A DNA stretch of 5,522 bases from a bacterium (GTDB lineage: Bacteria > Krumholzibacteriota > Krumholzibacteria > LZORAL124-64-63): the NCBI GenBank assembly GCA_030592025.1, contig JAUUZX010000148.1, positions 1 through 5,522 of the forward strand, written 5' to 3'. A program made the translations under genes and the position numbers. The notes below the pieces were generated by a model. That model was not told where the DNA came from. It did not search any database and worked only from the letters and a program-made list of their open reading frames with translations. Of this stretch, positions 1-5,522 are shown piece after piece (the stretch's first letter is position 1; the number at the start of each line of letters is the position of its first letter).

Positions 1-831
1 CTCGGCCACCGCCGCGACGGCGTCACGCACCTCGGGCACCTCGGGATAGACCAGCCGGCCGCCGGCATAGAGTTCGGCGATCCGGCGGCTGTTGGGGATG
101 CGGACCATCAACTCGATGCCCTCGTCCTCGCAGTACCGCAGCACGTTGTCGTCCCCGATGCCGTGGCGGTTCAGGACCACGGCGAACTCCTTGCCCAGGT
201 GCCGGACCGTCTCGACGGCCAGCTTCAGGTCGTGGAGGCCGAAGGGGGTGGGCTCAGTCACCAGGATGACCAGGTCGGCATCGCGGGTGGCCTCGATCAC
301 CGGGCAGGACGTGCCTGGCGGCGCGTCGAGGATCTTGACGACATCAGCGGGGAATCCGGCATCGACGTAGTCCAGGGTCTGCTTGATCAGGGGGACGGCC
401 TGCTCCTCGCCGATCATCAGTTTGCTCTCCACGAAATCCAGCGATCCCTGACGGAGGTGCTTCAGCTCGCCCATGGGCTTGGGGCGCATGGGAAGGGAAC
501 CGGTGGGGCAGAGCTCCGAACATGCGTAGCAGCCGTGGCAGAGTTCCGGGAAGACCATCACGCTGTCGGGCATGGTCAGGACGGCGTTGAAGTTGCAGAC
601 GGCCTGGCAATTCCCGCACAGGGCGCACGCCTCGGCCTCCCATTCCGGGATCATCTTGTCCGTGGTCTGCCGATGTTGCAGCTCGCCGTCCACGAACAGC
701 CCGGAGTTGGGCTCCTCCACGTCCAGGTCGACGAGGACGACGGGGCCCGACTCGGCCATGAAGACGGCGAGGTTGGTGGCCAGGGTCGTCTTGCCGGTGC
801 CGCCCTTGCCGCTGGCGATGGCGACCTTCAT
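1..831 (-). CDS. MinD/Mrp-family P-loop ATPase with inserted two-cluster ferredoxin domain (partial, C-terminus off window)
   Basis: Translating the minus strand from the ATG at 831 gives 277 codons with no stop before the window edge. The first residues, MKVAIASGKGGTGKTT, hold the deviant Walker A motif (KGGTGKT, residues 9-15) of the MinD/ParA/Mrp superfamily. VVLVDLDVEEPN (31-42) is the switch I region. Two CxxCxxCxxxC motifs follow (Cys 69/72/75/79 and 98/101/104/108), the pattern of a 2x[4Fe-4S] ferredoxin inserted in the ATPase fold. DAPPGTSCPV (169-178) is the Walker B region typical of this subgroup, followed by VTEPTPFGLHDLKLAVE. Family members are about 280-295 residues, so only a few residues should be missing. 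The start codon overlaps the stop of the upstream NifX-type gene (TGATG) and has no strong Shine-Dalgarno, so translational coupling is likely. Known for the family: ATP-dependent Fe-S or metal-cofactor handling is presumed; the exact reaction is unknown. Such ATPases often occur as tandem pairs. Confidence 0.93.
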   Translation of the reverse strand, partial: MKVAIASGKGGTGKTTLATNLAVFMAESGPVVLVDLDVEEPNSGLFVDGELQHRQTTDKMIPEWEAEACALCGNCQAVCNFNAVLTMPDSVMVFPELCHGCYACSELCPTGSLPMRPKPMGELKHLRQGSLDFVESKLMIGEEQAVPLIKQTLDYVDAGFPADVVKILDAPPGTSCPVIEATRDADLVILVTEPTPFGLHDLKLAVETVRHLGKEFAVVLNRHGIGDDNVLRYCEDEGIELMVRIPNSRRIAELYAGGRLVYPEVPEVRDAVAAVAE

Positions 832-1208
832 CACGCGTCCCGGCAGTGGTGGTGGTCATCGTCCTCGCCACCGTGGTTGCACAGGTTGTCGCCGGTCTCG
901 AGTTCGTCCAGGAGGAATTTCGCTACGAGGGCTCTGGGCTCCTCGACACCGACCCCCATGTGCACCTCGATGGAGTTCTGCTTGAAGATGTTCTGGGCCA
1001 TGGCCCCCATCCCGCCCGCGATGACGATGCTCACGCCGGCCTGGGCCAGGAACGCCGGGTAGGAACCGGGTTGATGCTGGGGCGGCGCGAGCTGGAACTC
1101 CTTGAGGATGTTCCCGTCCTCCACCTCGAGGACCGCGAAGCTCTCGCAGTGACCGAAATGGGCGCACGACTTGCCGCCGGCGGTGGGGATGGCGAATTTT
1201 CGGTTCAT
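831..1208 (-). CDS. NifX/NifB-type (MTH1175-like) dinitrogenase iron-molybdenum cofactor-binding family protein
   Basis: A 125-residue protein starting MNRKFAIPTAGGKSCAHFG. The HFGHCESF motif (residues 17-24) and AGGMGAMAQNIF (64-75) are hallmarks of the small NifX/NifY/NifB C-terminal fold, which in nitrogenase systems binds Fe-S or FeMo-cofactor precursors. Length and the ETGDNLCNH segment (104-112) fit stand-alone members. No other nif gene is present here, so a nitrogenase role is not implied. The tail beyond residue 110 is rich in Cys, His and acidic residues (C110, H112, H119-H121, C122), which could bind metal. The start was chosen by the MNRKFAIP homology, an AGGAG Shine-Dalgarno at 1216-1220, and the ATGA overlap (4 nt) with the stop of the upstream zinc-ribbon gene. 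It likely works with the ferredoxin-ATPase encoded directly downstream as carrier or acceptor of a metal cluster; that partnership is inferred from context. Confidence 0.93.
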   Translation of the reverse strand: MNRKFAIPTAGGKSCAHFGHCESFAVLEVEDGNILKEFQLAPPQHQPGSYPAFLAQAGVSIVIAGGMGAMAQNIFKQNSIEVHMGVGVEEPRALVAKFLLDELETGDNLCNHGGEDDDHHHCRDA

Positions 1209-1462
1209 GAATCGTCTCCTGTCTTGCGGGAGCGGGCGAGCAGTTCTTCTCGCACCATGGTCGTGTTGCATTGGGGGCACTTCAGTTCGGTGCACTTGAC
1301 GCCCCGCTCGTGGGGGACCTTCGCGCCGCACTTGGCGCACACGCAGAAACCGCCGGCGCCGAATGCGCCGCCTCTGTTTCGGCCCTGGCCGCCGCCGGCC
1401 GATCCGCGGCCGCTGCCGCCGCCTCCACCGCGACCGCCGCCCATACCTCGTCCTCCGGGCAT
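1205..1462 (-). CDS. Small Gly/Arg-rich protein with C-terminal six-cysteine zinc ribbon
   Basis: An 85-residue protein starting MPGGRGMGGGRGG. Residues 1-38 are almost wholly Gly, Arg, Ser and Ala (RGG-like low complexity). Residues 40-65 carry C-x-C-x2-C (40, 42, 45) and C-x4-C-x2-C (57, 62, 65), a compact zinc-ribbon or rubredoxin-like metal site, with the pattern KCGAKVPHERGVKC between them. The remainder is a short charged tail. I recognise this as a small uncharacterised type found beside NifX-type and DUF5320 genes; no function is known to me. A longer reading frame starts 11 codons upstream, but the ATG at 1462 is preferred because AGGAGG at 1469-1474 sits 6 nt before it and because the MPGGRG start fits the family. 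The stop overlaps the next start by 4 nt (ATGA). Metal binding is inferred from the cysteines; a role as chaperone or adaptor to the NifX-ATPase pair is speculation. Confidence 0.85.
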   Translation of the reverse strand: MPGGRGMGGGRGGGGGSGRGSAGGGQGRNRGGAFGAGGFCVCAKCGAKVPHERGVKCTELKCPQCNTTMVREELLARSRKTGDDS

Positions 1463-1468
1463 ACCTGT

Positions 1469-1474
1469 CCTCCT
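1469..1474 (-). promoter_or_regulatory. Strong Shine-Dalgarno deciding the start of the zinc-ribbon gene
   Basis: The minus strand reads AGGAGG followed by a 6-nt spacer (ACAGGT) and the ATG at 1462. It lies inside the longer frame that opens at 1495, so it argues for the shorter 85-residue product. Confidence 0.8.
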
Positions 1475-1482
1475 AAAAGTCG

Positions 1483-1495
1483 GTGGCCCCGCCAC
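1483..1495 (-). other. Short GC hairpin between the DUF5320 and zinc-ribbon genes
   Basis: The minus strand reads GTGGC-GGG-GCCAC, a 5-bp stem with a 3-nt loop. CGACTTTT and then the Shine-Dalgarno of the next gene follow. This is the only gap of any size (38 nt) inside the five-gene operon. The stem is short and the T-run has four bases, so it could be a weak attenuator or an RNA-processing or stability element, or it could be chance in GC-rich DNA. Confidence 0.25.
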
Positions 1496-1500
1496 TGGGT

Positions 1501-1836
1501 CTAGTCGTCGTCCGAATCGACGAGACGTTGCTCGAGGGCCGCCATCTGGGCCTTCAGGGACGCCAGTTCGTTCACCAGGGCGCTGGTATCATCAGCGACC
1601 GGCGGTGCGTAGCCCTGAATGAAGCCCCGGCCGCGTCCGCCACCGAAGCCACGCCCGCCACCGAAGCCTTGGCCCCGGCCAAACCCTCTTCCAAACCCGC
1701 GGGCCATCCCGCGGCCTCCGCGGAACGGAGCCTCATCGTTCGTGAAGCCGGGCGCGTCGGCTCCGGCGCAGTAGCCCTGGCCTCGTCCGGTCATGGGACC
1801 CATTCCGTCTGGTCCTCTGCGGTCTCCCCTAGGCAT
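1501..1836 (-). CDS. DUF5320 family Gly/Arg-rich protein with C-terminal coiled coil
   Basis: A 111-residue protein starting MPRGDRRGPDGMGPMTGRGQ. This N-terminal block, followed by GYCAG (21-25), is the signature of DUF5320 proteins. Residues 38-72 are a low-complexity run of FGRG, FGGG and RGRG repeats. Residues 86-106 (SALVNELASLKAQMAALEQRL) show a leucine heptad pattern, suggesting a short oligomerising coiled coil, and the protein ends in an acidic SDDD tail. The only cysteine is C23, in the conserved block. No function is established for the family. It recurs next to NifX-type proteins and ferredoxin-MinD ATPases, so a helper role in that pathway is inferred. The start at 1836 is supported by AGGAGGT at 1843-1849, which lies within the last codons of the DUF134 gene; the gap between the two genes is 4 nt. 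Confidence 0.9.
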   Translation of the reverse strand: MPRGDRRGPDGMGPMTGRGQGYCAGADAPGFTNDEAPFRGGRGMARGFGRGFGRGQGFGGGRGFGGGRGRGFIQGYAPPVADDTSALVNELASLKAQMAALEQRLVDSDDD

Positions 1837-1840
1837 GTCT

Positions 1841-2296
1841 CTACCTCCTGTTACGGTGTTGGTGACGTCGGCAGCAGTTCCCGTGGCCGTACCCGCCCGC
1901 CAGGTCGATGAGATTCTTCGACCCGCAGCTCGGGCATTCGCTCACGTCCGCGCCGAACGCCATGCTGAACATGTGCCCGCATGCGTGGCACTCGATAAGG
2001 TTCCCCCGGAAGTGGACGTCGCCGCCTTCGATCTGCAGCCGCCGTCCGTCGATGACGAACTGGGCGATCTTGAAGCGGGCCTTCTCCACCAGACGCGAGA
2101 ACGTCGAGCGAGAGATGCCCATCTGCTCGGCGGACTCGGCGTGATCCAGGCCTTCGTGGTCGGCCAGACGGATCGCCTCGAACTCGTCCAGACCCAACGC
2201 CACCAGCTGCAGATCGGCAGCACGCACCCCTGTCGGCTTGAAGTCCGAGAACAGGGGCGGGCGACGGACGGATCGTTTCTTCTTCGGTCGAGGCAT
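1841..2296 (-). CDS. DUF134 (UPF0251) predicted DNA-binding protein with C-terminal zinc ribbon
   Basis: A 151-residue protein starting MPRPKKKRSVRRPP, the usual basic N-terminus of DUF134. LGLDEFEAIRLADHEGLDHA (34-53) leads into a sigma-like helix-turn-helix, about residues 51-75 (SAEQMGISRSTFSRLVEKAR). GRRLQIEGGD (84-93) is the family motif that closes the DUF134 domain. An added C-terminal zinc ribbon has CHAC (C103, C106) and CPSC (C121, C124). The tail is rich in Gly, His, Cys and Arg (GYGHGNCC, then RRHQHRNRR). The frame stays open to 2368, but that extension crosses the promoter. The ATG at 2296 has AAGGAG at 2302-2307 with a 5-nt spacer, and it matches the family start. As first gene of the operon, with a palindrome in its promoter, it is a likely autoregulator responding to metal, Fe-S status or redox; this is inferred. 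Confidence 0.92.
   Translation of the reverse strand: MPRPKKKRSVRRPPLFSDFKPTGVRAADLQLVALGLDEFEAIRLADHEGLDHAESAEQMGISRSTFSRLVEKARFKIAQFVIDGRRLQIEGGDVHFRGNLIECHACGHMFSMAFGADVSECPSCGSKNLIDLAGGYGHGNCCRRHQHRNRR
1843..1849 (-). promoter_or_regulatory. Shine-Dalgarno of the DUF5320 gene embedded in the end of the DUF134 gene
   Basis: AGGAGGT on the minus strand doubles as the last two arginine codons (AGG AGG) and the first base of the TAG stop of the DUF134 gene. It lies 6 nt before the DUF5320 ATG at 1836. Ribosomes finishing DUF134 would cover this site, which suggests translational coupling. Confidence 0.8.
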
Positions 2297-2301
2297 GGGG
2301 T

Positions 2302-2307
2302 CTCCTT
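2302..2307 (-). promoter_or_regulatory. Shine-Dalgarno of the DUF134 gene
   Basis: AAGGAG on the minus strand with the 5-nt spacer ACCCC before the ATG at 2296. It decides between this start and the upstream in-frame ATG at 2368, which lacks promoter sequence in front of it. Confidence 0.8.
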
Positions 2308-2322
2308 GGTTTGCTGACCCCC

Positions 2323-2350
2323 AATATAAGCACATATGTGCATAACACAA
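2323..2350 (-). promoter_or_regulatory. Predicted sigma70-like promoter of the five-gene cluster
   Basis: On the minus strand, TTGTGT (2345-2350, matching TTGaca at its first three bases) is followed by a 16-nt spacer and TATATT (2323-2328, five of six bases of TATAAT). The predicted transcript would start near 2315 and carry a short leader with the DUF134 Shine-Dalgarno. The element is AT-rich against a GC-rich background and is the only promoter-like sequence I see upstream of this operon. The -35 box is weak, so an activator or alternative spacing is possible. Confidence 0.55.
2330..2341. promoter_or_regulatory. Perfect 12-bp palindrome in the promoter spacer, probable operator
   Basis: GCACATATGTGC reads the same on both strands. 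It sits between the predicted -35 and -10 boxes, where a bound protein would block RNA polymerase. The flanks are AT-rich and partly symmetric (TTAT before it on the minus strand, TTAT after it). The likeliest binder is the product of the first gene, the DUF134 helix-turn-helix protein. That assignment is inference from position. Confidence 0.6.
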
Positions 2351-2354
2351 GGAG

Positions 2355-2376
2355 AAAACGGCCCCCAACCAAGGGC
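2355..2376 (-). terminator. Weak terminator-like hairpin upstream of the DUF134 promoter
   Basis: On the minus strand, GCCC and GGGC (2361-2376) can pair across an 8-nt loop, perhaps with one more T-G pair, and are followed by CG and TTTT (2355-2358). It would lie at the end of a transcript reading through from gspF and just ahead of the next promoter. The stem is short and the T-run is only four bases, so this is a weak candidate. Confidence 0.2.
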
Positions 2377-2460
2377 ATGGTATCCCTGTAGATGGTGGTA
2401 AAAAGCCAAAATTAGCTCATAGCGGCAGAAATCTCTATTTTTTGGACATATGACTATTAA

Positions 2461-2588
2461 GTTGTGCCTTCGAAATTGTGCCCGCTCAAAATGGGGCCGG
2501 ATTTTCAGTATCTAGCCATCAAGTATTCCAAGTCAGAGGTCAAAAACACAGCATCGGGAATGGGTGGACACAATTTCAGAGGCACAAC
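2461..2588. repeat. 128-bp segment bounded by 23-bp imperfect inverted repeats (MITE-like or insertion-sequence end remnant)
   Basis: The left arm 2461-2483 (GTTGTGCCT-TC-GAAATTGTG-CCC) and the reverse complement of the right arm 2566-2588 (GTTGTGCCT-CT-GAAATTGTG-TCC) match at 20 of 23 positions. The left end also carries a second, direct copy of the inner motif: GAAATTGTGCC at 2472-2482 and CAAAATGGGGCC at 2487-2498. Stacked repeats of this type are found at the ends of IS21-like elements, where they bind transposase; that family link is tentative. The 82 nt between the arms have no room for a transposase. I see no clear target-site duplication. The right arm ends 7 nt before the gspF stop codon, so the element does not damage gspF. 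Confidence 0.5.
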
Positions 2589-2595
2589 CGACGGG

Positions 2596-3831
2596 TCAAA
2601 CCAGGTCCAGTTCCATGATCGGCAACATCATCGAGAACACGATGAAGCCCACCACCAGGCCCAGGAAGACGATCAGCATGGGCTCCAGCACGGTGGTGAT
2701 CACCTTCATCTTCTCCCGCAGTTCCCGTTCGTAGACCCGGCAGGCCTTCTCCAGGGAATCGGCCAGCTCCCCCATCTCCTCGCCGACCTGGATCATCATC
2801 ACCAGCACGCTGTCGCCCAGGCGGCTTTCGTTGATGACCTCACTCAGGCTGGCCCCCTCGCCCACCCGCTGCCCGAACTCCGCGAGCTCCGCCTCGACGG
2901 CCGCGTTCCCCGAACAGCGCGAGGCGAACCAGAGGCCCCGCATCAGCGGCACGCCACCGCCCACCAGGCTGGCCAGGGTGTGGGCGAACCGCACGATCTC
3001 GCGGTTCAGGATGATCCGTCCCACGACGGGGATATTCAGGATCGCCAGGGACACCAGGAGCCGGTACCGAGGCGACCGTGCGCGCAGGACCGTCAGCCCC
3101 AGCAGCAGCAGCAGCAACACAACGAGAACCAGCAGGCCGTAGCCCCGGAAGAAGGCCGAGGTGTCGAGGAGGAACCGGGTCGGACCGGGCAGTCCCTGGC
3201 CCAGGTCGGTGTACAGGACGCTCAACTTGGGCAGCAGGAACAGGAACATCACGACGAGGGTGGCGACGCTGACCAGGAGCACCAGCGCGGGGTACAGCAG
3301 GGCGGCCCGCACGGTCCGCTCGAGGTCGTCCTCCTTCTCGTACAGATCGGCGAGGCCCCGCAGGATCATGATCAGGCCACCGCTTGTTTCCCCGGCCTCG
3401 ATGGCGCCGATCAACGAGCGCGGGAACAGCACCCCGTACCCCGTCAGCGACTGGGACAGGGACTCGCCGCTCTTGACCCGGAAGGCCACCGAACGCAGCA
3501 CACCCTTCAGGGTGCGCTCCCGGGTCTGGGCGTGGAGCTGCTGCACCGCCTTCTGCATGGGCAGGCCGGCGTCGAGGAGATCCCCCAGGCGTCGCGTGAA
3601 GAGGGCCAGGGCCTGGCTGCCCAGGGGCCGGTGCCGAAGGCGTTGCCAAAGCCCGCCCAGCACCCCGGTCCCCCCAAGAAAACCGCTCTCGGGGAAGACC
3701 TCGGCCACCTCCACCGGGAACATCCCCTTGGCGACGAGGGTGCGGGAGACGCCGGAGGTGGACTCACCCTCCATGACCCCTTCGACCCGGGTGCCCAGGC
3801 CCGTCTTGGCGATGTAGCGGAAAGCCTTCAT
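2596..3831 (-). CDS. gspF: Type II secretion inner-membrane platform protein GspF (PilC/GspF family)
   Basis: A 411-residue protein of normal family length starting MKAFRYIAKTGLGTRVEG, the usual short N-terminal domain. It has two T2SSF repeats, about residues 76-199 and 280-401. Each opens with a related stretch (FTRRLGDLLDAGLPMQKAV at 78-96; FAHTLASLVGGGVPLMRGL at 282-300) and contains the family's Gly-Glu turns (IEAGETSGGL 144-153; IQVGEEMGELADSL 347-360). Three hydrophobic membrane segments lie near 178-200, 231-249 and 380-404; the end, VLEPMLIVFLGLVVGFIVFS, is typical. GspF sits in the inner membrane and couples the GspE motor to pseudopilus assembly. It starts 18 nt after the gspE stop with only a weak Shine-Dalgarno (GGGA), suggesting read-on translation from gspE. 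The C-terminus is complete. No gspG follows. A type IV pilus PilC identity is possible, but the secretin-E-F order favours secretion. Confidence 0.93.
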   Translation of the reverse strand: MKAFRYIAKTGLGTRVEGVMEGESTSGVSRTLVAKGMFPVEVAEVFPESGFLGGTGVLGGLWQRLRHRPLGSQALALFTRRLGDLLDAGLPMQKAVQQLHAQTRERTLKGVLRSVAFRVKSGESLSQSLTGYGVLFPRSLIGAIEAGETSGGLIMILRGLADLYEKEDDLERTVRAALLYPALVLLVSVATLVVMFLFLLPKLSVLYTDLGQGLPGPTRFLLDTSAFFRGYGLLVLVVLLLLLLGLTVLRARSPRYRLLVSLAILNIPVVGRIILNREIVRFAHTLASLVGGGVPLMRGLWFASRCSGNAAVEAELAEFGQRVGEGASLSEVINESRLGDSVLVMMIQVGEEMGELADSLEKACRVYERELREKMKVITTVLEPMLIVFLGLVVGFIVFSMMLPIMELDLV

Positions 3832-3849
3832 GCCGACTCAAATCCCATC

Positions 3850-5397
3850 TTAGATTCCATCATTGCCCGCCGTCACCCGCAGCACTTCGCTCACCGATGT
3901 CTCCCCCCGCGCCGCCAGGGCCAAGCCCCGCTCCCGCAACGTTCCGGTGCCCACGGCCGTCAGTTCCTCCCGCAACGCCGACGCCGGCGCCCGGGACAGG
4001 ATCAGCTCCTGCACCTTGGACGTGACCGGGAGGATCTCGAAGATCGCCGTGCGGCCGCTGTATCCTGTTTGGTGGCACTTCTCGCAACCGGCCCCCGTCT
4101 TGAAGACGACATCCGAACCGACGCGCTCGCCCATCTTCCCGTCGGCGAACTCCACCGCCAGTTCCTTGGCGTACTCCCGCTTGTCGATCTCCACGCAATT
4201 CGGGCAGATCTTCCGCACCAGCCGCTGGGCCAGGATGCAGCGCACCGACGAAGCCAGCAGGTAGGGCTCGATCCCCATGTTGAGCAGGCGCGCCGGGGTA
4301 CTGGGGGCGTCGTTGGTGTGCACGGTGCTGAAGACCAGGTGGCCGGTCAGGGCGACGCGGATCACCGTCTCGGCGGTCTCCTGGTCCCGGATCTCGCCGA
4401 CCATCATGACATCGGGATCGTGGCGCAGCATCGACCGCAGGCCACGGGCGAAGGTCAGCCCGATGCGGGGATGGACCTGCACCTGGGTGATACCGTCGAG
4501 GTGGTACTCGATGGGGTCCTCGATGGTGATGATCTTGCGGCTGGTCTCGTTCATGATGTTGAGGAACGAGTAGAGCGACGTGGTCTTGCCGCTGCCGGTG
4601 GGCCCGGTCACGAGCATCACGCCGTAGGGCGAGGCCAGCGTCTCGCGGATGAACGCCTGCTCCTCCTCCCACATGCCGAGGCCGGACAGCCCGGTCAGGA
4701 TCGAGGCGTTGGTCAGCACCCGGATGTCCACGGTCTCGCCGAACTGGGTCGGCAGGACGGACACGCGGTACTCGTTCTGCACACCACCCACCGTGGCCTT
4801 GATGCGCCCGTCCTGGGGCAGGCGGCGCTCGGCGATGTCCAGGTTGGCCATCACCTTGATGCGCGACACCACCACGGCATGGTACCGGACCAGCCCTTCG
4901 GGGACGGCAATCTCCAGCAGCATCCCGTCGATGCGGAACCGCACGCGGACCCGATTCTCCAGGGGCTCCAGGTGGATGTCCGTGGCGCCTTCCTGTTCGG
5001 CCCTCAGCAGCAGTTCGTTCACCACCGAGACGATGGACGCGTCGTCGGCCGCGTCGTCCACCAGTTCCCGGTGGACGTAGCCCGCGCGGGACTGGACGTT
5101 GCGGAGATCCTCGACCTCGTCCGGACCGGTGGCGTTCAGGCTGTCGATGGCGTCGGCGCCCACGCCGTAGGTCTTCTGCAGGAGCGTGGAAAGCGGCTCC
5201 TCTGCGTAGGGTTCACCGGTGACCTCGAGCCCCAGCAGGAGGGCCAACTCGCCAAGCACGTTGGAGCCGACGTCCTCCAGGTGCGCCACGTGCAACACGC
5301 CGTTCTCCAGACCCAGCGGCACCACGAAGAACCGCTTGGCGTACCGGGCCGGGATCACCGCCGACGCGTTGGCGAAGGGTTGGTCAGTCGGGTTCAT
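3850..5397 (-). CDS. gspE: Type II secretion ATPase GspE (PulE/PilB family)
   Basis: A 515-residue hexameric ATPase that powers the pseudopilus at the cytoplasmic face of the inner membrane. The N-terminal T2SSE_N-type domain (about 12-80: VIPARYAKRFFVVPLGLENG) contacts the platform. The N2 domain contains ATDIHLEPLENRVRVRFRID (138-157). Walker A is GPTGSGKT (265-272), the Asp box TIEDPIEYHLDG (291-302), and the Walker B region MLRHDPDVMMVGEIRD (323-338, catalytic Glu 335). The His box is GHLVFSTVHTNDA (352-364). A tetracysteine zinc site, C398/C401 and C438/C441, is the C-terminal zinc-binding feature usual in GspE and in many PilB/MshE proteins. All catalytic motifs are intact. The start overlaps the secretin gene by 14 nt in another frame, with GAGGAA at 5402-5407 as Shine-Dalgarno. 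PilB or MshE type identity cannot be ruled out from this window alone. Confidence 0.94.
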   Translation of the reverse strand: MNPTDQPFANASAVIPARYAKRFFVVPLGLENGVLHVAHLEDVGSNVLGELALLLGLEVTGEPYAEEPLSTLLQKTYGVGADAIDSLNATGPDEVEDLRNVQSRAGYVHRELVDDAADDASIVSVVNELLLRAEQEGATDIHLEPLENRVRVRFRIDGMLLEIAVPEGLVRYHAVVVSRIKVMANLDIAERRLPQDGRIKATVGGVQNEYRVSVLPTQFGETVDIRVLTNASILTGLSGLGMWEEEQAFIRETLASPYGVMLVTGPTGSGKTTSLYSFLNIMNETSRKIITIEDPIEYHLDGITQVQVHPRIGLTFARGLRSMLRHDPDVMMVGEIRDQETAETVIRVALTGHLVFSTVHTNDAPSTPARLLNMGIEPYLLASSVRCILAQRLVRKICPNCVEIDKREYAKELAVEFADGKMGERVGSDVVFKTGAGCEKCHQTGYSGRTAIFEILPVTSKVQELILSRAPASALREELTAVGTGTLRERGLALAARGETSVSEVLRVTAGNDGI

Positions 5398-5522
5398 GCG
5401 CTTCCTCTTCGTAGAGCTCGCGGCCGGTCATGATCTTCGGGGTCAGCAGGATGACGAGCTCGCTCTTGAAATCCTCCTCGACGTTGCTGGAGAACAGGTA
5501 CTTGAGCAGGGGGATGCTCGCC
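5384..5522 (-). CDS. gspD: Secretin C-terminus, type II secretion outer-membrane channel GspD-like (partial, 5' part off window)
   Basis: The last 45 residues of a secretin lie at the right edge. ASIPLLKYLFSS is the typical IPLLGxLF segment at the end of the secretin beta-barrel domain, and ELVILLTPKIM is the conserved final strand of the family (ELVIxLTPxI). The tail is acidic and charged (ELYEEEAHEPD). Secretins form the multimeric outer-membrane gate for folded exoproteins or pili. The stop TGA at 5384-5386 lies inside gspE (14-nt overlap), so the two genes are co-transcribed and probably coupled. The fragment is too short to separate GspD from PilQ or MshL; the GspD name rests on the secretin-E-F gene order. 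Confidence 0.85.
   Translation of the reverse strand, partial: ASIPLLKYLFSSNVEEDFKSELVILLTPKIMTGRELYEEEAHEPD

Follow-up and report, generated by a model that had tools for sequence, protein, structure and literature searches.

A DUF134-linked gene cluster related to the ORP/MrpORP kind in Krumholzibacteriota and other phyla

The closest described systems to the gene cluster considered here, which lies on contig JAUUZX010000148.1 of a Krumholzibacteriota genome (GenBank assembly GCA_030592025.1; lineage LZORAL124-64-63), are the ORP (orange protein) complex of Desulfovibrio, the protein MrpORP and the NifX-domain protein IssA of Pyrococcus furiosus. The ORP complex has no settled physiological role, and the related form described here is widespread. 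It was reported that the orp operons of Desulfovibrio are under sigma-54 control and that the C-terminal domain of MrpORP contains about 3.2 Fe per chain and a 3Fe-4S cluster, of which the authors remark that 'additional work is needed'; the conserved DiNase motifs of MrpORP are CXHFGHCE, TPPPHXPGXXP and CDH (PMC6345978; this article, PMC5524996 and PMC7565180 are cited for the portions of their text that were available). IssA carries a cationic Gly/aromatic tail, which was proposed to wrap thioferrate (PMC5524996).

The stretch analyzed, referred to as the window throughout, comprises positions 1 to 5,522 of the forward strand. Its five minus-strand genes encode a DUF134 regulator, a DUF5320 protein, a small Gly/Arg-rich protein with six cysteines (six-Cys protein), a NifX-type protein and a ferredoxin-MinD ATPase, with gaps of 4, 38, -4 and -1 nt. 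This layout had been claimed in a preliminary description made from the sequence alone and was borne out by the reading frames and a Pfam scan; the metal or iron-sulfur (Fe-S) character claimed there is also supported. By sequence comparison, the cluster is an apparently DUF134-controlled variant related to the ORP/MrpORP kind, real and widely conserved, and the gene set probably handles iron-sulfur clusters. Based on the MrpORP-domain match, the motifs, the locus counts and the Mrp fusions, we regard it as likely that the five genes are the beginning of an ORP-like operon, cut by the window end, which holds and passes on Fe-S (or other metal-sulfide) units under the regulation of DUF134. The pathway, formerly called unknown, is in this respect related to ORP/MrpORP and not wholly unknown. 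A candidate operator before DUF134, ATGMACATATGTKCAT, and an apparent network of fusions among the small parts are new; the former makes regulator, signal and regulon directly testable, and together they give first hints of function for DUF134, DUF5320 and the six-Cys protein, three families that have received little study.

The NifX-type protein and its gene neighborhood

The NifX-type protein of the window aligns to positions 265-364 of the 365 positions of the MrpORP model NF041136 (E 9.2e-31, 107 bits), its sole NCBIfam match at E up to 0.1. The earlier statement that no ORP-specific gene is visible here has to be revised on this point. The motifs CAHFGHCE, APPQHQPGSYP and CNH are present, the first an exact fit to the published MrpORP set and the other two with substitutions, and H17, G19, C21 and C110 are invariant across 35 aligned sequences (the window protein and 34 of the 108 other proteins found). 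The protein thus reads as a stand-alone form of the MrpORP C-terminal 'Di-Nase' domain. Its AlphaFold model (pLDDT 83.7) matches 2yx6 (2.4e-9) and 2wfb, the ORP of D. gigas (9e-5), as well as 9ian (NifEN-NifX, 3.6e-4) and 1p90 (NafY); the best structures are 2yx6 and 2qtd, rather than NifX. Its near relatives include one from a member of the Krumholzibacteriia (L001), with 70% identity.

Neighbors within 6 kb of the NifX-type gene were counted in the best 80 of at least 580 relatives obtained by a genome-contig scan; all 80 loci were counted, many of them on short contigs, with DUF134, DUF5320 and the six-Cys protein detected by profiles grown on these same loci and the ATPases by motifs. Sixty-one loci have a ferredoxin-MinD ATPase nearby, and 56 have at least two. 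An additional NifX-family protein, from a group resembling ORP, is near in 57 loci, DUF134 in 54, DUF5320 in 52 and the six-Cys protein in 41. DUF134, DUF5320 and ATPase all accompany the NifX-type gene in 35 of the 80 loci, and the six-Cys protein does so too in 22. Co-location of the families is far above chance, because bearing genomes have only about one or two genes of each family and 35 loci nevertheless have the trio together. Among the 48 loci flanked by over 3 kb on each side, the figures are 37 for the ATPase (two or more in 36; none in reach in 11), 38 for the second NifX protein, 35 for DUF134, 34 for DUF5320, 28 for the six-Cys protein and 12 for a separate Mrp. A view of the set as having no visible tie to ORP is not supported; in most relatives, an ATPase pair and an ORP-like protein accompany the NifX-type gene.

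The order DUF134, DUF5320, six-Cys, NifX-type, ATPase 1, ATPase 2, second NifX recurs in Krumholzibacteriia (L003), Spirochaetales (L004), Chlorobiota (L006) and Bacteroidota (L012), and is altered in an Armatimonadetes record (L007) and in Cloacimonadota (L025, L026, L029). The carriers are spread over metagenome-assembled genomes (MAGs) of Krumholzibacteriia, Spirochaetota, Bacteroidota/Chlorobiota, Cloacimonadota, Armatimonadota and others, and include a named strain, Bacteroides luti DSM 26991 (L019). Downstream in L003 stand a second ATPase and an ORP-like protein, then a third NifX-family protein and a CGGC protein. The NifX-type domain is fused to Mrp in 12 of the 80 loci, and the two fused proteins scanned against NCBIfam (L071, 559 bits; L042, 536) both exceed the MrpORP cut-off of 450 bits. 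The second NifX group contains 63 proteins in 60 loci, a lower bound in which the L003 copy was missed by the gene caller; 37 stand before and 23 after the window-type gene, and three are unplaced. The L003 copy matches 1rdu (6e-15) and the D. gigas ORP chain 2wfb (5.7e-12).

Other recurrent neighbors, of which at most one or two members per family were scanned, include a NifU_N-type scaffold in 10 loci (one representative, PF01592 1e-28), CGGC proteins in 15, proteins of a metallo-beta-lactamase fold in 16 and pyridine-nucleotide-type oxidoreductases in 13 (family by eye); FeS_assembly_P occurs in L012, with similar proteins in three further loci. Fe-S work is favored because scaffold and assembly families are among these neighbors. 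A radical SAM protein is found in 14 loci (e.g., L029:1258-2193; one member scanned).

The same families bear on a reading in which the gene set handles Mo/Cu thiometallate clusters of the kind carried by Desulfovibrio ORP (S2MoS2CuS2MoS2). Binding of that cluster is described for Orp8 relatives (PMC6345978), and the ORP-like protein of the 57 loci would agree with it; however, the window protein belongs to the MrpORP type of domain, in which the reported cluster is 3Fe-4S (PMC6345978), the assembly families nearby are those of Fe-S, and no Mo/Cu gene is evident by eye in neighbor groups of at least six loci, none having been searched by name. We consider this reading decidedly unlikely. Positioning at the cell pole or in division by the MinD-type ATPases, with metal sites only tuning it, is highly improbable: a putative part in cell division was once ascribed to the ORP complex, and MrpORP sits mostly at the poles (PMC6345978), but the neighbor groups of at least six loci consist, by eye, of Fe-S/redox proteins with no division gene.

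Whole-genome co-occurrence was assessed in 80 genomes from the phylum of L003's host (presence: NifX-type E <= 1e-12, ATPase E <= 1e-40, DUF134 over cut-off). DUF5320 is present in 40, NifX-type in 42, ATPase in 39 and DUF134 in 36; all four occur in 14 genomes and none in 22. DUF5320 goes with ATPase (34/6/5/35, Fisher p 2e-11), NifX-type with ATPase (35/7/4/34, p 2e-11) and DUF5320 with NifX-type (32/8/10/30, p 7e-7), p-values that overstate independence since related genomes share ancestry. On the same contig and within 6 kb, ATPase lies beside DUF5320 in 30 of 43 cases and NifX-type (DiNase-A) beside ATPase in 26 of 44; 27 of 42 DUF134 genes have one of the other three nearby and 15 have none (47 of 62 DUF5320 rows were used, second or weak pieces being omitted, and 42 of 47 DUF134 rows, omitting five below cut-off). 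Based on these association and adjacency counts, the core appears to be NifX-type protein, ATPases and DUF5320, with DUF134 as the usual but exchangeable regulator. A scatter of the families without co-occurrence, which would have spoken against the preliminary description, is not seen for DUF5320, NifX-type and ATPase.

Nitrogenase was rejected as a partner, and [FeFe]-hydrogenase and the heme-copper oxidase family were rejected as constant companions. No nitrogenase gene was detected in the window by reading frames and Pfam scan, and only two of the 23 genomes that bear the cluster have PF00148 over cut-off (L019, L061; three at E <= 0.001), in line with the independence from nitrogenase claimed before. 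[FeFe]-hydrogenase occurs in 14 of 39 ATPase-bearing genomes and in 12 of 41 others (p 0.63).

The DUF134 regulator and its candidate operator

The pattern ATGMACATATGTKCAT was drawn from the upstream regions of DUF134 in 54 loci and the window (for L051, with two DUF134 hits, the second alone was used). It is found in 36 of these 55 regions, a partly circular count, with no mismatch in seven, one in 22 and two in seven, and 19 regions show no fit; dinucleotide shuffles gave 0.02 expected matches. Relative to the DUF134 start, 35 of the 36 sites lie at -39 to -62, and that of L037 lies at -90. The candidate in the window is its sole match at up to two mismatches (0.01 expected). By eye, the site fills the spacer between a TTGACW-like -35 and a TATATT-like -10, or a Bacteroidota-type TANNTTTG; a simple sigma-70 consensus scan of the window yielded no promoter, and both promoter and operator emerged only by cross-locus comparison. 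The set of 80 genomes contains 17 sites at up to one mismatch, 11 of them no more than 500 nt from a DUF134 gene; in the 79 genomes that remain without L003's own, 10 of 15 adjoin DUF134 genes, and the reversed control pattern has no match in the whole set. The earlier view of a compact unit is upheld, with a conserved site before its own regulator gene, and the cluster seems to be switched, in several phyla, by its own DUF134 regulator through a palindromic upstream site.

A second set consists of 247 genomes of the phylum to which the host of L015, a Bacteroidetes MAG, belongs (counts read off tables). It contains 32 sites in 28 genomes, and 14 genomes match the reversed control. Among 40 DUF134 upstream regions of this set, eight have the site at up to two mismatches, three have the kindred dyads ATGAGCATACGCTCAT, ATGGGCATACGCCCAT and ATGAGAATATTCTCAT, five have another dyad around GGCATATGC, and 24, one of them a short contig-end stretch, have nothing resembling the site. 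The strict site is therefore chiefly a feature of the DUF134 lineage found in this cluster. A different dyad, around TTGGCATATGCTAA or TTAGCATATGCCAA, stands upstream of DUF134 in L173, L174, L176, L177 and L189 and is possibly the operator of another DUF134 subfamily.

The regulon was scanned in 23 genomes chosen because their loci carry the site. They contain 29 sites at up to one mismatch, 0 to 2 per genome (reversed control 0), and seven of these are second sites. Two are credible as promoter-like sequences. In L107 (3199-5063), TTGACAT-TTGAACATATGTTCAT-TACTCT precedes a NifX-family gene (PF02579 7e-7) and a CoA-disulfide-reductase-like flavoprotein, which suggests a trans target of DUF134. 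In L012 (2954-6364), the site precedes an octaheme tetrathionate-reductase-family cytochrome (618 bits, cut-off 375) and a cytochrome b561-PAS protein, which lie just upstream of the cluster. The second site of L104 is intragenic and that of L105 reads as coding by eye, and neither was taken as a promoter site; those of L103, L106 and L108 are ambiguous and were not counted as credible.

The structure model of DUF134 has no fold match at E <= 0.001, its top matches being MCM domains with poor superposition; its helix-turn-helix stretch superposes on sigma region 4 with E 0.07-0.09 and a root-mean-square deviation of 0.6-0.9 over 47-48 columns. The operator (four spellings) and the fusion network were not found in the literature searched, whose coverage leaves out most subscription papers, and there UPF0251 turned up only in a mutation table; a study of iron limitation in Bacteroides (PMC12000045) contains none of five terms looked for. 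The coordinates of the cluster are collected in Table 1.

Table 1. Features of the cluster in the window
Feature	Position	Strand	Basis or remark
Operator candidate ATGCACATATGTGCTT, 1 mismatch to ATGMACATATGTKCAT	2328..2343	-	47 nt ahead of DUF134 start
Putative promoter: -35 TTGTGT (2350-2345), 16-nt spacer, -10 TATATT (2328-2323)	2323..2350	-	By eye, cross-locus alignment
DUF134 (UPF0251) regulator, 151 aa	1841..2296	-	PF02001 3.1e-23; 82.6 bits, above the gathering score of 27
DUF134 features: sigma-region-4-like helix-turn-helix, CxxC...CxxC zinc ribbon, GHGNCC tail	1841..2296	-	Alignment
DUF5320 protein, 111 aa	1501..1836	-	PF17253 2.1e-19
DUF5320 features: GPMTGRGxGYC head, Gly/Arg/aromatic-rich middle, C-terminal helix-like stretch	1501..1836	-	Family composition
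Small Gly/Arg-rich protein, six-Cys/His core CVCAKCGAKVPHERGVKCTELKCPQC	1205..1462	-	Core pattern in 41 of 44 profile hits
NifX-type (DiNase) protein	831..1208	-	PF02579 6e-16; NF041136 9.2e-31; model fits PF02579-family structures
Ferredoxin-MinD ATPase, 3' end beyond window	1..831 (start 831 or GTG 834)	-	CbiA 2e-16 and Fer4

The six-Cys (zinc-ribbon) gene has an alternative open GTG start at 1495, and the Pfam scan gave no family above cut-off for its product. The ATPase has a deviant Walker A motif, GKGGTGKTT, and two inserted [4Fe-4S] motifs; among its near relatives is a 'Candidatus Eisenbacteria' entry with 78% identity. Upstream of the cluster and on the same strand, separated from the DUF134 gene by 299 nt, are a GspF-like gene (2596-3831) and a GspE-like gene (3850-5397) of type II secretion or type IV pilus character, whose best NCBIfam matches are under the equivalog cut-offs.

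Small proteins, fusions and proposed function

The six-Cys core C[VILMA]CxxC-x4-6-H-x4-8-C-x3-5-[CY]PxC is found in 42 of 81 sequences (the 80 loci and the window) and in 0 of 5616 reversed frames. In seven Bacteroidota loci it forms the C-terminus of DUF134, in cis to the regulator instead of in trans as in the window, and none of the seven has a separate copy in the available sequence. It follows a DUF5320-type head in L048, L049 and L073, and in L032 (10072-10473) it is joined to two [4Fe-4S] motifs beside a MinD-ferredoxin ATPase and an Mrp-type gene. In L049, DUF134 and a NifX domain share one frame, in which an internal ribosome-binding-site-like stretch and an ATG are seen by eye; this frame may give two proteins. 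Because fusions join DUF134, six-Cys core, DUF5320 and NifX parts, regulator, six-Cys protein, DUF5320 and NifX proteins appear to be one functional set.

In the mechanism that we favor, the ORP-like operon, the NifX-type protein would use its Cys/His motifs to bind a small Fe-S cluster, as published for the MrpORP domain. Tandem ferredoxin-MinD ATPases, the second beyond the window, would be ATP-driven partners that receive, exchange or reduce the Fe-S unit; Orp3 and Orp4 are COG1149 MinD ATPases, and we take the paired ATPases to be of this type. A downstream ORP-like protein and Mrp, fused or encoded elsewhere, would complete the complex. DUF134, with its sigma-region-4-like helix-turn-helix, would sit on ATGMACATATGTKCAT in the -35/-10 spacer of its own promoter, where it would block or modulate transcription and respond through Cys/His sites. 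The six-Cys protein, in seven loci part of the DUF134 polypeptide, would be the sensory partner of DUF134, and metal or cluster supply would set occupancy of the site. DUF5320 would supply a Gly/Arg tail and helix, which some NifX-type proteins carry in cis.

Several observations weigh against this reading. No more than 31 of the 80 loci have Mrp within 6 kb (19 separate genes and the 12 fusions). DUF134 associates weakly with each other family in the 80 genomes (p 0.05-0.13), and only 11 of their 42 DUF134 genes bear the strict site; in the 247-genome set, where 65 genomes have DUF134, 4 of the 32 sites adjoin it, in three genomes (G012, which is in the derivation set, G189 with two sites, and G290). 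The second NifX proteins fit 1rdu (TM1290) slightly better than ORP and the IssA-clade MTH1175 about equally: the profile of nine downstream copies, including L003, gives 1.2e-19 for 1rdu, 1.5e-17 for 2wfb and 1.6e-14 for MTH1175 (1eo1), and that of nine upstream copies 4.9e-29, 7.6e-28 and 1.1e-27, so that they appear ORP-like but about equally like TM1290 and MTH1175. The cluster of the DiNase domain was inefficiently transferred in MrpORP (PMC6345978), and because efficient transfer was not seen there, it may be structural. Of the 39 genomes with the ATPase, 21 also have heme-copper oxidase family genes (30 of the 41 others; p 0.10), counter to a strictly anaerobic role. None of the three metalloenzyme families tried, nitrogenase, [FeFe]-hydrogenase and the heme-copper oxidase family, goes with the set.

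Storage is a real rival, drawn from the comparison with IssA (PMC5524996): in such a split IssA, thioferrate or iron sulfide would begin to form on the NifX-type proteins; DUF5320, along with the six-Cys protein's Gly/Arg head, would wrap it, with the ATPases loading and unloading it. In 53 DUF5320 copies, the up to 50 residues after TGR have medians of 14 Gly, 7 Arg+Lys, 9 F/Y/W/H and 2 acidic residues, a Gly/Arg/aromatic-rich and acid-poor composition that would suit wrapping. The NifX-type proteins of L042, L044 and L080 end in a Gly/Arg tail and a helix-like stretch resembling DUF5320, and no separate DUF5320 was found in the available sequence of these loci; yet the tails score 26.8, 26.9 and 22.1 bits against PF17253, all under the cut-off of 27, and low complexity inflates such scores. 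The matches of the second NifX proteins to MTH1175, a member of the IssA clade (PMC5524996), would also agree. The window NifX-type protein has the MrpORP Cys/His motifs and ends in CNHGGEDDDHHHCRDA, with no cationic Gly/aromatic tail in the same protein. RG-rich proteins can moreover bind nucleic acid, and an archaeal G4 study names one DUF134 protein and one DUF5320 protein among its motif hits, with no DUF5320 function given in its available text (PMC7565180). On balance, a split IssA is unlikely.

Both lines could be combined, in a reading that we consider unlikely, in a modular Fe-S sensing-and-storage kit. DUF134 would sense cluster supply through the six-Cys module or through a fused NifX domain as in L049, DUF5320 would be a detachable IssA-like tail, and iron-sulfide polymers held by NifX proteins would be drawn down by the MinD-ferredoxin ATPases. 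If true, this would be a regulated bacterial iron-sulfide reserve, distinct from ferritin, ISC, SUF and NIF.

Comparison with known systems

The NifX/NafY/NifB family (PF02579) has its fold in common with the window protein, whose model matches 2wfb, 1p90 and 9ian; the window protein differs from nitrogenase NifX in its best structures, and no linkage to nitrogenase was found in the window. With IssA, a NifX domain and a Gly/Arg/aromatic segment are shared, here mostly as separate proteins: the window NifX-type protein is tailless, the tail-like segment is in DUF5320, and a storage role is putative. MrpORP (NF041136, an iron-sulfur cluster carrier) has the C-terminal domain and the three published motifs in common with it in close form, whereas the Mrp P-loop domain is not in the window polypeptide, which scores far below the cut-off of that model.

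To the Desulfovibrio ORP complex (Orp3, Orp4, Orp5, Orp8 and Orp9/MrpORP), compared directly only through the 2wfb chain, the likeness would be one of working: in relatives of the window, a pair of ferredoxin-type ATPases is likewise clustered with an ORP-like NifX protein and with the NifX domain of MrpORP. The window itself has one incomplete ATPase, and the second ATPase and the ORP-like protein are seen only in relatives. In contrast to the complex, the NifX domain is a separate protein here and two-domain MrpORP is not in the window. Divergent operons under sigma-54 and a cognate activator were not found here, a sigma-54 activator group being present in six other loci (one member scanned). 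With two defining features not found and two outside the window's view, the cluster is set apart from the ORP complex proper. Where that complex has a sigma-54 activator, this one has DUF134 with a candidate site of its own and sigma-70-type spacing, and DUF5320 and the six-Cys protein are added.

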